Shown here: positions 7,054 through 58,020 of the stretch, in pieces
How positions within the stretch are numbered: position 1 is the stretch's first letter
How the letters are laid out: each line of letters begins with the position of its first letter
Assembly (NCBI RefSeq): GCF_001270265.1
Contig: NZ_LGAP01000016.1
Span: 1 to 64,000, forward strand
Reading direction: 5' to 3'
Source: Ensifer adhaerens
GTDB taxonomy: Bacteria > Pseudomonadota > Alphaproteobacteria > Rhizobiales > Rhizobiaceae
DNA: 64,000 nucleotides
Translations under genes and position numbers: made by a program
Notes under the pieces: model-generated
Seen by the model: the letters and a program-made list of their open reading frames with translations, nothing else
Databases searched by the model: none
What the model was told of the DNA's origin: nothing

Positions 7054-7161
7054 TGGCCCACTCACGAAAGAACTCGACCACATCACAAAAGCAGGCCACG
7101 AGCAAGATCAGTAGAGATATCCCTCGCCGCAAACAACCATCGAGACGGCAAGGAAACATCC

Positions 7162-8361
7162 ATGGCAACGGTTACTTCAACCGGGGACATAACCCCGGAA
7201 AAGACGGCATTTTCCGTCATCCTGGCAGTCAGCTTCTGCCACATGCTGAACGACATCATGCAATCGCTGCTGACGGCGCTCTATCCCTTGCTCAAGGCGA
7301 ACTATTCGCTCGATTTCGTCCAGATCGGCCTTCTGACCTTCACCTTTCAGCTGACCGCCTCGATGCTGCAGCCGGCTGTCGGCATCATCACCGACCGCTG
7401 GGCGCTGCCCTACTCACTGCCGGTAGCGATGCTTTCCACATGCTCCGGCCTGATCCTGCTCGCGAACGCCCATGATTTCTCGATGCTGCTGCTCGCTGCA
7501 AGCCTGATCGGCGTCGGTTCGGCGATCTTCCATCCGGAATCCTCGCGCATCGCCCGCCTCGCCTCGGGTGGGCGGCATGGCTTGGCGCAATCGCTGTTCC
7601 AGGTCGGTGGCAATGCCGGCAGCGCCATGGGACCGCTGCTCGCAGCCTTCATCGTCATCCCCTTCGGCCAGGGTAGCCTCAGCTGGTTCTCGATCGTCGC
7701 GGTCATCGGCTTCTTCGTGCTCTCCTGGGTCAGCACCTGGTACGTGCGTCACCGCCGTTCGTCGATGAGCCGGCCAGCACCGAGCCGCGCGCTGCCGCTG
7801 CCGAAGAACCGCGTGATATGGGCCGTCGCCGTCCTGGTGCTGCTGACCGCCACCAAGAACGTCTATATGGCCAGCATCTCCAGCTACTTCACTTTCTTCG
7901 TCATCGAGAAGTTCAGCGTTACCGTGCAGCAGGCGCAGCTGATGCTCTTCCTGTTCTTAGGTGCGGCCGCCGCAGGCACCTTCCTCGGCGGTCCGATCGG
8001 CGACCGTTACGGTGCCCGCTTCGTCATCTGGTTCTCGATCCTCGGCGTCATCCCCTTCGCGCTGATGCTGCCCTATGCGAACCTCTTCTGGACCGGCGTG
8101 CTGTCGATCATCATCGGCTTCATCTTCTCCTCCGCGTTTTCGGCAATCGTCGTTTTCGCGCAGGAGCTGGTGCCGGGTCGCGTCGGGCTGATTGCCGGTG
8201 TCTTTTTCGGCTTCGCCTTCGGATTCGGCGGCATGGGTGCAGCTCTTCTCGGCATTTTTGCCGACCGGCAGGGCATCGAGTTCGTCTACACCGTCTGCTC
8301 CTATCTGCCGCTGCTCGGCATTCTGACGATCCTTCTGCCCAAGATGCCCGCGCGGCATTAG
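7162..8361 (+). CDS. fsr: Fosmidomycin-resistance-like MFS exporter
   Basis: This 399-residue major facilitator protein has 12 predicted membrane segments. The first contains HMLNDIMQSLLTALYPLLK, and the block GVGSAIFHPESSRIAR is a hallmark of the Fsr (fosmidomycin resistance) subgroup. In E. coli Fsr exports fosmidomycin; natural substrates in rhizobia are not established. The ATG follows CAAGGAAA at good distance; longer in-frame extensions overlap the divergent regulator and are rejected. The gene ends in a strong terminator, so it is a single-gene unit controlled from the shared AraC intergenic region. The symbol is by family resemblance. Confidence 0.8.
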   Translation: MATVTSTGDITPEKTAFSVILAVSFCHMLNDIMQSLLTALYPLLKANYSLDFVQIGLLTFTFQLTASMLQPAVGIITDRWALPYSLPVAMLSTCSGLILLANAHDFSMLLLAASLIGVGSAIFHPESSRIARLASGGRHGLAQSLFQVGGNAGSAMGPLLAAFIVIPFGQGSLSWFSIVAVIGFFVLSWVSTWYVRHRRSSMSRPAPSRALPLPKNRVIWAVAVLVLLTATKNVYMASISSYFTFFVIEKFSVTVQQAQLMLFLFLGAAAAGTFLGGPIGDRYGARFVIWFSILGVIPFALMLPYANLFWTGVLSIIIGFIFSSAFSAIVVFAQELVPGRVGLIAGVFFGFAFGFGGMGAALLGIFADRQGIEFVYTVCSYLPLLGILTILLPKMPARH

Positions 8362-8532: not shown

Positions 8533-9573
8533 ATGCGAGGGCGATCGGCGATTCCTGCCTTTTTGACGACGTTGCTTCTGGCAACGGCGGGGCAAGCCGA
8601 AACGCTCAACCTGCTGATCTGGGAATCCTATATCGACCAGGCGATCCTCGATCGCTGGACGGCGATAACCGGCGTCGGAATCCATCAAGTCTACTACGAC
8701 AACGGCGATACCCGCGACGAGGTGCTGGCCGATCCGAACAGCATCGTCGATCTGGTGGTGACCGGAGAGAACGGCGCCGCCCTCTTTGGGCGCAGGGGGG
8801 TGCTGGAGACGGTCGACGAGACGAATGTCGCCTCGCTCAGGGACTATGACGATAGCTGGCGCAAGCGCTGCTCGAACCATGGCCTGCCCTATCTCTGGGG
8901 CACGATGGGCATTCTCTACCGATCGGACATGCTGCCTGAAGCGCCGACGTCCTGGCGCGACCTGATGCAGCCGGCTCCGGCGCTCACCAAGCACGTCGCC
9001 ATGTATGACGACCACAACGAGGCCTTCGTCGCGCCCCTCATGCTGCTCGGCGAGTCGATCAACACCAACGAGCCGGCAACGCTCAAGACCGCCTTCAACC
9101 TGATGAAGGAACAGGCGCCGGCCGTTCTGACCTATGAATACGTCATCAGCTCGATCCAGAACCAGGCGATCGGCAAAAACATCTATATGGCGCTCGGCTA
9201 CAGCGGCGACCAGCACGTCCTGAACGAGAAGGCCGGCACACCGGGCGTCTGGCGCTATGTCGTACCCAAGGAAGGCTCGCTTTCCTGGCTCGACTGCATG
9301 TCGGTTGTCGCCAAGTCGCCAAACAAGGCGCGAGCGCTCGCCTTCCTCGATTATATCGGCTCGCCCGGAAGTGCCGCCGCAAACGCGCGGGCGCTGAATA
9401 TGCCGACACCCAGCAAAGCCGCCCTTGCGCTCCTGCCTGAGGCGATGCGCACGGACCAGGCGATCTACCCCTCGCCCGACATTCTGGCCAAGAGTCAATA
9501 CCAGCAAGAACTGTCAACGACGTCGGTGCAGCTGCGCCGACGCATCATCAGCACATTGGCGAATTTCCAGTGA
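8533..9573 (+). CDS. PotD-like periplasmic polyamine-binding protein (NspS-like sensor)
   Basis: The 346-residue protein begins with a signal peptide cleaved near residue 22 (LLLATAGQA|ETLN). It continues with the start typical of spermidine/putrescine binding proteins, LNLLIWESYIDQAILDRW. LPYLWGTMGILY is the conserved PotD/PotF block that shapes the polyamine pocket. There are no transporter permease or ATPase genes nearby. Instead its stop codon overlaps the GTG start of a membrane GGDEF-EAL protein. This is the arrangement of nspS-mbaA in Vibrio, where a PotD-like protein reports (nor)spermidine to a c-di-GMP enzyme. I infer a sensory, not transport, role. AGGGG lies before the ATG. Confidence 0.85.
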   Translation: MRGRSAIPAFLTTLLLATAGQAETLNLLIWESYIDQAILDRWTAITGVGIHQVYYDNGDTRDEVLADPNSIVDLVVTGENGAALFGRRGVLETVDETNVASLRDYDDSWRKRCSNHGLPYLWGTMGILYRSDMLPEAPTSWRDLMQPAPALTKHVAMYDDHNEAFVAPLMLLGESINTNEPATLKTAFNLMKEQAPAVLTYEYVISSIQNQAIGKNIYMALGYSGDQHVLNEKAGTPGVWRYVVPKEGSLSWLDCMSVVAKSPNKARALAFLDYIGSPGSAAANARALNMPTPSKAALALLPEAMRTDQAIYPSPDILAKSQYQQELSTTSVQLRRRIISTLANFQ

Positions 9574-11933
9574 CCCTCGGCAAGCGCGCACTCATCCTGA
9601 TCTTTCCCGTGGTGCTCGCCGGCTACCTGCTGGCGGCGGTGTCGGTCCATGTCACCCAGAGCCGGTCGATCCGGGCGCTCGAACATGCCAAACTATCCCA
9701 GCGGCTGGAACACGCCGCCGCTGTCTTCCAGAACGAAATCGGCCGCAGCAAGGGCTTCCTCAATGCGCTCCTGAACAGCAACGCACTGCGCCAGTACATC
9801 TCGGAAACCGACAAAAACTATCGGGCCAACGCGCTCGGCGTCCGGCTGCAGGAAAGTGTCAAGTCGCTTTCCGACGACCCGATGGGCTACGTGTCGCTGG
9901 TGATCCTGACATCGAGCCTGCAGTCCGAGTATTACTTCGAAAACAGCTGGGATCCCTTCGCGGAAATCGACGAGGCACAACTCAATCTGGCACGGCGGCT
10001 AGTGCGCGAGGAGAAACTCGCCGACTGGACCTATCTCTACGACGCCGGGCAGAAAGCTCGTATCGTCTATTCGTATTTCCTCGATCCCGTCACGTTCACA
10101 CGGCCGCTGCCGAGCAAGAAATCGAGCGCGCTGCTTATCCAGGTAGCAATACAGCCGGATCGCTTCCTCGACATGCAGGAGACGCTGAAGCAGGAATACG
10201 GCGCCGACATCGTGCTTCAGCCGTGGCCGCTGGCGGTCACCGACGATCTTTCGGCAAGCGTGCATCTCGGGCCATCGCTCTATGCGACGCTGACGGTTTC
10301 CAACAATCATTTCTACCGGTTGATGGCCCAACAGAAATTGCTGCTGGCGCTTGGCGCCGTGGCAATGAGCCTGTTTTCGATCTGGCTGATCATCGTTCTC
10401 ATCCGGCGGTTCATCACCGACCCGATTGCCACGCTCGACGCCAACGTCATGGCCGTCATGGTCGGCGCCCATGACGAGATCCGCAACATGGAGGAGAAGG
10501 GCGAGATCGGGCGCCTGACGGAGAACATCAGGGAGTTGCACCGGCAGTCCGAGCAATCGCTCAAACTGGTGCAGCGCAGTTCCTGGACCGACACGCTGAC
10601 CGGGATCAGCAATCGCGGCCACTTCAACGCCGTTGCCGCCAGCATCGTTCGCGAGGCCATTGTCTCGGGCGAAAAATGCAGCCTGCTGTTCATCGACATC
10701 GACAACTTCAAGTTCGTCAATGACAAGCATGGCCATGAGATCGGCGACGAGCTCCTGAAGACGCTGGCGACGCGCATCGCCGAGAGTGTCGAAGCGATCA
10801 CCGAGCGACGCGGTCAGAAGCCGGCGATCCTGGCGCGGCTCTCGGGCGACGAATTCGCGGTGCTGGTCCGCTCGCGGCCGGGTGACGGCACCGTGCGGGA
10901 GGTTTCCGCGGCCATCCTGGCACTGTTCGAAGATGGCTTCGAAGTCTCCGGCAAGAGCTATCCGGTCACAGCCAGCATCGGCGCCGCCATCTGCCCCGAT
11001 GACGCCACCAATCTTGCCGAGTTGATCTCAAATGCCGACGCGGCGATGTATCAGGCAAAGACCAGCGGCAAGAACCGCTCTTCCCGGTTCTCGCGCGCCC
11101 TTCACGACAAGCGCACGCGCCTGCGCCAGATCCAGGACGAGCTGCGTTCGCTCGACCCGGACGAACAATTCCACCTGGTCTACATGCCGATTGTTGATAC
11201 CGATGGCCGGGTGGCCGGTTGCGAGGCGCTGTTGCGCTGGTATTCGCCGGTACTTGGCAACGTGACGCCGGACGAATTCGTACCGATCGCCGAAAGTTCC
11301 GGCCTCTTTACCAAGATCGACTGGTGGGTGATCAACAAGGCGATGTCCGACTGCCGGCAGCTGAAAGCGCTGTTTGGTCCCGATACGATCCTGGCGATCA
11401 ACATTTCCTCGGCCGAACTGCATTCGAAGGCGATTGCCGACTATTTCTCCGATTGCCTCAGCCGCCATGGCCTTCAGCCGCAATCGATCGAAATCGAACT
11501 GACGGAGACCTTCGCGGTCAAGTTCAGCGACCAGCTCCGCCGCAACATCGACGAGCTTCGACAAAAAGGATTCCGCCTGTCGATCGACGATTTCGGAGCG
11601 GGCTACACCTCGGTCCAGCAGATTATCGAATACACCGCCGATACGATCAAACTCGATCGCGCGCTTGTTTCGAACCTCACGGCATCACAATCGCTACCGG
11701 TACTGAAGGCTCTGATCGCGCTGTGCCACGCCAAAGACGTTGCCGTGGTCGGCGAAGGCGTCGATACGCCGGAGAAGCTCTCGATGCTGACGGCTGCAGG
11801 CTGCGACCTCTTCCAGGGCTATCTCATCAGCAAGCCGCTGCCGCTCGAGGATCTCGGCATCTGGGCGCTGACGCGCACCGCCCGCTATGCCAATCAACAG
11901 GATGATCGCAAGAACCAGCAGGCCATCGCCTGA
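9570..11933 (+). CDS. Membrane GGDEF-EAL protein (MbaA-like c-di-GMP enzyme)
   Basis: The 787-residue protein has a membrane segment at about residues 6-28, a periplasmic region of some 220 residues, a second segment at 256-279, a HAMP-like linker, a GGDEF domain (SGDEF at 425-429), and an EAL domain. The EAL domain has EALLRW at 552-557, NISS, ELTET, DDFGAGYTS at 673-681, KLDR and the glutamate of EGVD near 729. All metal-binding residues of an active phosphodiesterase are present; SGDEF is a tolerated variant of GGDEF, so cyclase activity is also possible. Translation starts at a GTG overlapping the upstream stop (GTGA), indicating coupling. The periplasmic loop is the probable docking surface for the upstream binding protein. 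Confidence 0.9.
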   Translation: MTLGKRALILIFPVVLAGYLLAAVSVHVTQSRSIRALEHAKLSQRLEHAAAVFQNEIGRSKGFLNALLNSNALRQYISETDKNYRANALGVRLQESVKSLSDDPMGYVSLVILTSSLQSEYYFENSWDPFAEIDEAQLNLARRLVREEKLADWTYLYDAGQKARIVYSYFLDPVTFTRPLPSKKSSALLIQVAIQPDRFLDMQETLKQEYGADIVLQPWPLAVTDDLSASVHLGPSLYATLTVSNNHFYRLMAQQKLLLALGAVAMSLFSIWLIIVLIRRFITDPIATLDANVMAVMVGAHDEIRNMEEKGEIGRLTENIRELHRQSEQSLKLVQRSSWTDTLTGISNRGHFNAVAASIVREAIVSGEKCSLLFIDIDNFKFVNDKHGHEIGDELLKTLATRIAESVEAITERRGQKPAILARLSGDEFAVLVRSRPGDGTVREVSAAILALFEDGFEVSGKSYPVTASIGAAICPDDATNLAELISNADAAMYQAKTSGKNRSSRFSRALHDKRTRLRQIQDELRSLDPDEQFHLVYMPIVDTDGRVAGCEALLRWYSPVLGNVTPDEFVPIAESSGLFTKIDWWVINKAMSDCRQLKALFGPDTILAINISSAELHSKAIADYFSDCLSRHGLQPQSIEIELTETFAVKFSDQLRRNIDELRQKGFRLSIDDFGAGYTSVQQIIEYTADTIKLDRALVSNLTASQSLPVLKALIALCHAKDVAVVGEGVDTPEKLSMLTAAGCDLFQGYLISKPLPLEDLGIWALTRTARYANQQDDRKNQQAIA

Positions 11934-56675: not shown

Positions 56676-58020
56676 GCTGAGCTGCAACGCCGCGGTAGCG
56701 GTCCGAGAGGTAGCGCATCGTCGCAACGGCGTCGGCGGGCTTGCCGTAGAAGTAGCCCTGGCCCATGCCGCAGCCGAGCGCCTTCAGCTTCAAGGCCTCG
56801 GAAAAATCCTCGATGCCTTCGGCGACGACCTCAAGCTCCAAACCTTCGCACATCGAGACGATAGCCTTGATGATATGCTCGGAGGCACGGTCGGCCGAAA
56901 TCCGCGACACGAAGGCGCGGTCGATCTTGACCTTGTCGAAGGAGAAGTCGCGAAGACGTCCAAGACTCGATTGGCCCGTGCCGAAATCGTCGAGCGAGAC
57001 ACGAACGCCCGCTGCCCGAAGCTCGGTCACGATCTTCTGGGCGGTCTCCGCGTCTGCCATCACGGCCGTCTCGGTGATCTCCAGTTCCAGCCGCCGCGGG
57101 TCCAGGCCGATCTGGTTGATAATCGTCAACAGCCGCTGGCTGGTGGCCGGATCCATCAACTGCGCCGACGACAGGTTGAACGACAGGAAGAGTTCCTTCG
57201 GCCAGGAAAGTGCCGCGTGCGCCGCCTTGCGCAACAGCGTCTCGGCCAAAGATTCGATGAAACCGCGCTCTTCCGCCAAAGGCACGAAGACGGCTGGCGA
57301 GACATAACCGAGGTCAGCGTCGCACCATCTGGCCAACGCCTCGAAGCCGACAACCGCGTCGTTGCGCAGGTCGACGATCGGCTGGAAATGCACATCCACC
57401 TCGTTGGCGATGATCGCATTGCGCAGCGCCTGCTCGAGCTGCGTCGCGCGCTTCATCTCCTGCGCAATTTCCTGGGAATAGACGGTGATCTGGCCGCGAC
57501 CGCGGCGCTTGGAACGATAGAGCGCCGTGTCGGCGCTTTTCAGCAGGTCTTCGAACACTTCGCCGGCAAAGGGATAGACGGCAAAACCGAAAGAAGCCGA
57601 AAGACGGACGTTGCGGTCGCCGAGATCGAAGGGCGCCGACAGCACCTCTTTCAGCATCAGGCCGACCTTCTCTGCACCTTTGCGCTCGAAGACGAGCGGC
57701 AGGACGAAGGCGAATTCGTCGTTCTCGGAGCGGATGATCGTTGCGCCTTCAGGCGCGCAGGCCTGCAGCCGATGGGCAACCTGGCAGAGGATCTCGTCGC
57801 CGGCGCGTGGGCCGAAAAGGTCGTTGATCGGCTTGAAGCCATCGATATTGGCAAGGCCAATGGTAAAGGGAGCGGGATCGCTGGCGCGCTCTTCAGCCAG
57901 ATCGCAAACGGTCTTGCGGAGCTGGCGCGCATTGCCGAGCCCGGTCAACGGATCGATCGAGCCGTCCACGACCAGAGGCTCCCTGCCGATGCGGTGATAG
58001 GGAGTTTCCCCCGACATCAT
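56671..58020 (-). CDS. EAL-domain c-di-GMP phosphodiesterase with degenerate GGDEF
   Basis: The 449-residue soluble protein has a GGDEF domain whose motif is ENDEF (residues 99-103), so cyclase activity is unlikely though GTP binding is possible. Its EAL domain keeps EALARW at 227-232, FNLSS, EITET, DDFGTGQSS at 344-352, KIDR and EGIED near 401, consistent with active phosphodiesterase. No membrane segment or sensor domain is seen. The start at MMSGETPYHR follows GGGGAC; a longer frame to 58179 adds Arg-rich residues without support. The stop codon falls in the adjacent repeat. Confidence 0.88.
   Translation of the reverse strand: MMSGETPYHRIGREPLVVDGSIDPLTGLGNARQLRKTVCDLAEERASDPAPFTIGLANIDGFKPINDLFGPRAGDEILCQVAHRLQACAPEGATIIRSENDEFAFVLPLVFERKGAEKVGLMLKEVLSAPFDLGDRNVRLSASFGFAVYPFAGEVFEDLLKSADTALYRSKRRGRGQITVYSQEIAQEMKRATQLEQALRNAIIANEVDVHFQPIVDLRNDAVVGFEALARWCDADLGYVSPAVFVPLAEERGFIESLAETLLRKAAHAALSWPKELFLSFNLSSAQLMDPATSQRLLTIINQIGLDPRRLELEITETAVMADAETAQKIVTELRAAGVRVSLDDFGTGQSSLGRLRDFSFDKVKIDRAFVSRISADRASEHIIKAIVSMCEGLELEVVAEGIEDFSEALKLKALGCGMGQGYFYGKPADAVATMRYLSDRYRGVAAQL

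Follow-up and report, generated by a model that had tools for sequence, protein, structure and literature searches.

A co-inherited NspS-MbaA gene pair as a probable polyamine sensor in Ensifer

Introduction

The NspS-MbaA system of Vibrio cholerae (VC0704-VC0703) is encoded by two genes, one for a PotD-like sensor protein and one for a receptor with an SGDEF motif, and has been described as a bifunctional polyamine-gated enzyme that switches between cyclase and phosphodiesterase activity (PMC8967002). An orthologous pair from Sinorhizobium meliloti, SMc00991-SMc00992, was published in 2023 as NspS-MbaA, together with mutant phenotypes (PMC9993111). Here we describe nspS and mbaA in a 64,000-nucleotide stretch of DNA (the window), which lies on contig C8 of a 7.46 Mb genome and comes from an Ensifer close to E. 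adhaerens. The pair is a further copy of the published system, and our analysis supports that interpretation of it without making it new.

The S. meliloti genes are reported to overlap by 3 bp and to encode a 787-residue MbaA with SGDEF and EAL motifs (PMC9993111). The S. meliloti and V. cholerae proteins are 31-32% identical, and the V. cholerae system differs in having EVL in place of EAL and a 16-bp overlap. Norspermidine and spermidine are opposite in effect in V. cholerae, an opposition that was not seen in S. meliloti (PMC9993111). Polar mutation of nspS in S. meliloti 1021 abolished most of the reduction in biofilm and exopolysaccharide that is caused by putrescine, spermine and diaminopropane (PMC9993111). 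In expR-minus S. meliloti, motility fell and biofilm or exopolysaccharide rose both when nspS was lost, with mbaA silenced, and when mbaA alone was lost (PMC9993111). According to the same paper the pair occurs in S. meliloti and S. fredii and also in species of Ensifer, among them strains spelled 'Ensifer adherens'. This spelling partly explains why our literature search for NspS with 'Ensifer adhaerens', polyamine and c-di-GMP (cyclic diguanosine monophosphate) returned nothing.

Results

The initial annotation of the window described a PotD-like gene that runs into a GGDEF-EAL gene through a GTGA overlap, and both open reading frames (ORFs) are confirmed, at exactly these positions:

8533 to 9573, forward strand: nspS, 346 amino acids, predicted periplasmic PotD-like polyamine-binding protein (ORF list; Pfam, NCBIfam and PDB matches)
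9570 to 9573, forward strand: GTGA overlap of 4 nucleotides, GTG being the start of mbaA and TGA the stop of nspS
9570 to 11933, forward strand: mbaA, 787 amino acids, membrane sensor with GGDEF and EAL domains (Pfam; orthologue of S. meliloti MbaA)

The gene order, the overlap, the length of MbaA and the combination of SGDEF with EAL are all shared with S. meliloti NspS-MbaA. The copy in S. meliloti 4H41 (L049) also has the same order of MipA, AraC, Fsr-position and PurD genes, and its NspS and MbaA are 63% and 79% identical, respectively, to those of the window. The assignment to NspS-MbaA holds, and for the syntenic S. meliloti orthologue it has been published before (PMC9993111). Among the matches listed, the closest named MbaA is that of Ensifer sp. 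LC163 (98% identity), followed at 97% by E. adhaerens Lc04, E. oleiphilus HO-A22 and Sinorhizobium sp. A49.

We next consider whether the two genes are inherited together. Separate searches of 297 sampled Rhizobiaceae genomes with the MbaA sensor domain (E 1e-5) and with NspS (E < 1e-50, at most seven candidates scored per genome) identified the same 33 genomes, which are spread over 13 of 109 genera. Fisher's test for this co-occurrence gives a p of about 1e-44, a value that treats the genomes as independent though they are related. nspS and mbaA are adjacent in all 33 carriers, so that the search for a two-gene unit across rhizobial relatives, proposed with the initial annotation, found exactly that. 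In the 75 named rhizobial loci, taken from the best 80 matches of one MbaA scan, nspS is always directly upstream of mbaA; the overlap measures 4 nucleotides in 56 of them and 11 or 14 nucleotides in 17, the other 2 having a disturbed nspS frame. Two patterns had been named as speaking against a sensor, namely potABC beside the binding-protein gene in relatives and the GGDEF-EAL gene standing alone. PotA, PotB and PotC (E 1e-15) were absent from the flanks of about 6 kb at each of the 75 loci. A lone mbaA was likewise absent from the 33 Rhizobiaceae genomes and the 75 named loci, but it does occur in 24 of 38 loci of a Vibrio-like genus, as discussed below. Frame-disturbed copies in the named rhizobial records (mbaA in L110 and L112, nspS in L069 and L110) reflect either decay or sequencing error.

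Beyond this family, a search for the sensor domain at E 1e-20 identified it in one of 385 genomes of a class-wide sample, the window's own, and in 12 of 398 genomes of a phylum sample, two of them Rhizobiaceae (at most five candidates scored per genome in both searches). At the same threshold it was found in 100 of 158 genomes of the Vibrio-like genus, so called because the named locus L114 clusters with it in the MbaA tree, and in 24 of 158 genomes of another gammaproteobacterial family. The Rhizobiaceae copies lie on one side of a branch of the tree with modest support (75), and the window MbaA falls in an Ensifer/Sinorhizobium branch of nine rows that includes S. meliloti 4H41. Several long branches counsel caution against inferring transfer from this tree.

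The features of MbaA are as follows:

9639 to 10337, forward strand: periplasmic sensor domain, residues 24-256, tentatively Cache-like (limits as in S. meliloti MbaA, PMC9993111)
9945 to 9962, forward strand: sensor loop S-W-D-P-F-A, residues 126-131, with Pro129-Phe130 as its core, a candidate contact for NspS
10584 to 11078, forward strand: GGDEF domain (Pfam), with SGDEF at 10842-10856, residues 425-429
11160 to 11837, forward strand: EAL domain (Pfam), with EAL at 11223-11231, residues 552-554

Pfam identifies the GGDEF and EAL domains with E-values of 7e-36 and 7e-62, and the catalytic residues are present, which bears out the SGDEF motif and complete EAL domain first noted. We compared 108 rhizobial MbaA rows, a set that excludes the frame-disturbed L110 and L112. 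Depending on the position, 107 or all 108 of them retain the GGDEF motif and three nearby cyclase residues that were tested. In the EAL domain, 107 rows retain the triad, the metal residues and K694; L182, the one row that does not, lacks this domain altogether. At E729 a further row, L181, has Gln, which leaves 106 intact, and position 732 is occupied by Asp in 104 rows. The catalytic numbering beyond four metal residues follows the RocR scheme. Those four are named in PMC9993111, from which the transmembrane limits and the HAMP label of MbaA are also taken; Pfam made no HAMP call on the window MbaA. L182 (983-3551, genome G088), from the Rhizobiaceae, encodes NspS followed by a 512-residue MbaA that ends after GGDEF, and may be a natural cyclase-only version. 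In ten gammaproteobacterial rows (L121 and L171-L179) SGDEF is replaced by AGDEF, and the cyclase may be inactive there.

An AlphaFold2 model of MbaA residues 1-330, built from 54 sequences (mean pLDDT, the model's confidence score, 83.7), predicts an alpha/beta periplasmic domain enclosed by two long helices. In a Foldseek search of the PDB just two matches reach E 0.001, both of them modelled chemoreceptor pairs (1.6e-7 and 4e-6), and these may largely reflect the long helices. The next matches are CqsR (1.1e-3), which we take to be a Cache protein, and dCache domains (3e-3 and weaker). Since these matches are weak and their TM-scores low, the periplasmic domain is described as Cache-like tentatively, on the strength of the model.

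NspS matches Pfam SBP_bac_8 (1.8e-27) and PotD-type crystal structures (about 1e-32), and its best NCBIfam match is PotD (1.2e-34), with 119.8 bits against a far higher model cut-off of 582. Read by eye, the sequence has a likely signal peptide at about residues 1-22 and no lipobox cysteine. NspS thus shares its fold family, and several ligand residues, with the PotD/PotF binding proteins of Pot ABC transporters. It differs from them in its identity of just 26% to E. coli PotD, in a cysteine pair described below, and in its genes: none of potABC is present among the flanking genes examined, and E. coli PotA, PotB and PotC gave no tblastn match in the window (E 1e-8). It is on these two checks that the absence of permeases near the pair rests; a separate permease scan scored 150 of 274 candidates. 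The initial description of a binding-protein gene without transporter genes is in keeping with this. A genome search found six other PotD-like genes. Each lies within a few kb of tblastn matches to PotA, PotB and PotC, whereas nspS has none nearby. The arrangement expected of a PotABCD transporter, with potA, potB and potC beside the binding-protein gene, was found neither in the window nor at the 75 named rhizobial loci.

Two residues set NspS apart:

8869 to 8871, forward strand: NspS Cys113, invariant, present in all 125 unique NspS sequences
9295 to 9297, forward strand: NspS Cys255, invariant in 125 of 125 unique sequences, directly following pocket residue Asp254

The unique set holds 86 rhizobial and 39 gammaproteobacterial sequences after merging of identical rows, and 122 of the 125 have exactly two cysteines past residue 25. 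C113 and C255 occur together in none of seven PotD-type proteins (the six paralogues and E. coli PotD), although one paralogue has a Cys aligned to C255 and the alignment is gappy around C113. C113 and C255 may form a disulfide. The main texts of PMC9993111, PMC8079147 and PMC5646818 make no mention of a cysteine or disulfide, and a literature search on cysteines or a disulfide in NspS returned no paper with NspS in its title.

To define the ligand pocket we used eight norspermidine-contacting positions that a homology model, cited in PMC9993111, predicts for V. cholerae NspS; they were mapped via the Vibrio-like NspS of L122 rather than V. cholerae NspS itself. Six of the eight are kept in the window NspS (W30, D56, Y223, D226, W252 and D254) and two differ, G78 standing for D90 and L121 for F131 of V. 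cholerae. At these two positions S. meliloti 4H41 has Asp and Phe, and the ligand preference of the window NspS may therefore differ. Rhizobial NspS varies at both sites: among the 86 unique sequences, residue 78 is most often G (58), otherwise N (14), D (12) or S (2), and residue 121 is L (70) or F (16). The row counts given for pocket residues, for catalytic residues and, below, for Pro129-Phe130 include near-duplicates, because a species may be represented by both a named and an unnamed copy, as well as copies of the window itself. The residue comparison with E. coli PotD uses the pocket numbering of that protein.

The 38 loci of the Vibrio-like genus, mostly the best-scoring of the 100 matching genomes, include 24 in which mbaA has no adjacent nspS (L114, L115, L124-L126, L128-L139, L142, L144, L146, L148, L149, L152 and L156). 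They fall into three branches of the tree, A, B and C. A few wordings of a literature search found no report of mbaA without nspS. In V. parahaemolyticus and V. vulnificus no response to norspermidine is reported, nor a clear MbaA at a 60% identity threshold (PMC10914755). An ORF of 383-409 amino acids upstream of nine nspS-less mbaA genes was considered as a new partner and rejected, as it reads as PheA (chorismate mutase/prephenate dehydratase), which is the upstream gene in two of the three branches; this is a reading of the sequence and not a family search. With a Vibrio-like NspS as query, the best match in 22 nspS-less genomes reached only E 7e-49 at 28% identity, compared with best matches of 2e-238 to 1e-56 in eight nspS-bearing control genomes. 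An unlinked match between 3e-44 and 7e-49 was present in seven of the 22, and also in one control, and may represent a distant NspS partner.

The periplasmic domain has changed in these branches. In 147 paired MbaA rows (near-copies included) 18 periplasmic positions are at least 90% conserved. Branch B has lost eight of them, against 7 of 137 conserved positions elsewhere in MbaA (Fisher p 3e-5), and branch C eight, against 15 of 137 (p 0.001); in branch A the excess is weak, with 3 of the 18 lost against 7 of 137 (p 0.09). Pro129-Phe130 is present in every row with NspS (all 108 rhizobial and all 40 gammaproteobacterial rows, 148/148), and in 6 of 24 without adjacent nspS (branch A 6/8, B 0/2, C 0/14). 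The Pro-Phe test was post hoc, branch B consists of two loci, and the rows are related rather than independent; L154, whose NspS match starts at residue 84, was counted as paired in both comparisons. Since Pro-Phe is kept with NspS and mostly lost without it, the S-W-D-P-F-A loop is a candidate contact for NspS. Loci L120, L145 and L140 have a single NspS gene 135-242 nucleotides upstream of mbaA, and the related G1169:C8:2370-4419 has two tandem NspS-like genes before mbaA.

Discussion

The window contains two overlapping genes whose products have the domains and intact catalytic residues of NspS and MbaA, which are orthologous to the S. meliloti pair and which are inherited together. We consider it very likely that they form the NspS-MbaA polyamine sensor of this Ensifer and adjust its c-di-GMP. 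For this organism polyamine binding and the ligand, docking and the change in c-di-GMP are drawn by analogy with the described systems. NspS would be secreted to the periplasm and bind polyamines directly, feeding no transporter, and would dock on the periplasmic domain of MbaA in a manner dependent on which polyamine is bound. Docking would act via the segment behind the second membrane helix to tip the output of MbaA towards its SGDEF cyclase or its EAL phosphodiesterase, and the resulting shift in c-di-GMP would in turn change exopolysaccharide, biofilm and motility. Resting MbaA is probably a net phosphodiesterase, which fits the phenotypes of nspS or mbaA loss in expR-minus S. meliloti; the exopolysaccharide deficit in 1021 and the similar biofilm in Rm8530, described below, speak against it.

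Several observations weigh against this account. In control conditions exopolysaccharide production was 19% lower in the nspS mutant of 1021, in the quorum-sensing-proficient Rm8530 wild type and nspS mutant formed similar biofilm when polyamines were absent, and no polyamine gave reciprocal regulation of phenotypes in S. meliloti (PMC9993111). Expression of mbaA is presumably lost as well in the S. meliloti nspS mutants, which therefore do not test NspS alone, and the part of PMC9993111 used here reports no binding, docking or c-di-GMP measurement for the pair. Nor does the whole family retain both enzymatic activities: of 40 gammaproteobacterial rows with NspS, 10 combine AGDEF with Gly at cyclase metal-site position 376 (D376 in the window), and L182 lacks the EAL domain. 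To these may be added the two of eight predicted pocket residues in which the window departs from both V. cholerae and S. meliloti NspS, and the Vibrio-like loci with mbaA and no adjacent nspS.

Could NspS instead be an orphan uptake protein, lent to a Pot transporter encoded elsewhere, with its position before mbaA incidental? Its PotD family membership and the several potABC sets in the genome would allow this, but nspS occurs with mbaA in 33 of 33 carriers, the genes overlap, NspS has residues of its own, and each of the six other PotD-like genes has transporter genes nearby; we regard the idea as highly improbable. Cache domains often bind small ligands directly, and MbaA might accordingly sense by itself through its periplasmic domain, NspS doing no more than modulating or delivering ligand. 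The weak fold match to Cache-type receptors (chemoreceptor dCache domains and V. cholerae CqsR) points this way, although MbaA, unlike these receptors, is thought to read its ligands via NspS. So does the finding that three branches of the Vibrio-like genus retain mbaA with no nspS beside it, with GGDEF intact in 25 rows labelled NspS-less (one of which, L154, actually has NspS) and the EAL metal residues intact in the 23 of those rows that reach them. In branches B and C, and weakly in A, however, the conserved sensor positions have eroded more than the rest of MbaA, and sensing by MbaA alone appears unlikely.

A related question is whether the two-gene sensor is the same but NspS of this Ensifer branch binds another ligand, such as homospermidine or a related amine, through G78 and L121. 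The contrast with Asp and Phe in S. meliloti 4H41, and the variety at both positions in rhizobial NspS, argue for this; the six retained contact residues and the acidic E79 next to G78 argue against it, and the pocket list itself derives from the homology model cited in PMC9993111. On balance we think a changed ligand rather unlikely.

Returning to polyamine sensing by the pair, its conservation confirms NspS-MbaA-type polyamine-to-c-di-GMP sensing as a co-inherited unit in part of the Rhizobiaceae. Cys113/Cys255, the Pro-Phe loop and pocket positions 78 and 121 provide sequence handles for telling NspS from transport PotD proteins and for how it talks to its receptor. We tentatively suggest, with more doubt than confidence, that NspS is a separate signalling class marked by a likely disulfide beside the pocket, which possibly sets or gates docking, that it touches the Pro-Phe loop of MbaA, and that mbaA escaped control by NspS at least three times in the Vibrio-like genus when nspS was lost. 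Polyamines occur around roots, hence the relevance of such a system to plant association; that the pair reads polyamines there is speculation, in the initial annotation and in PMC9993111 alike.

The pair is flanked by genes for a MipA-like protein, an AraC-type regulator, a major facilitator superfamily (MFS) transporter, purD, an ORF with no Pfam match, a 2-thiouracil desulfurase-domain protein and glyS. The MFS gene lies outside the sensor:

7159 to 8361, forward strand: MFS transporter gene at the fsr position (Pfam MFS_1), a conserved upstream neighbour

Its name is assigned by position, fsr having been treated by the group that studied S. meliloti nspS-mbaA (PMC12095868), and a homologue is present at 47 of the 75 named rhizobial loci. 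Elsewhere in the window, 56737 to 57954 on the reverse strand encodes another GGDEF-EAL region, with 30% identity to MbaA over residues 341-756.

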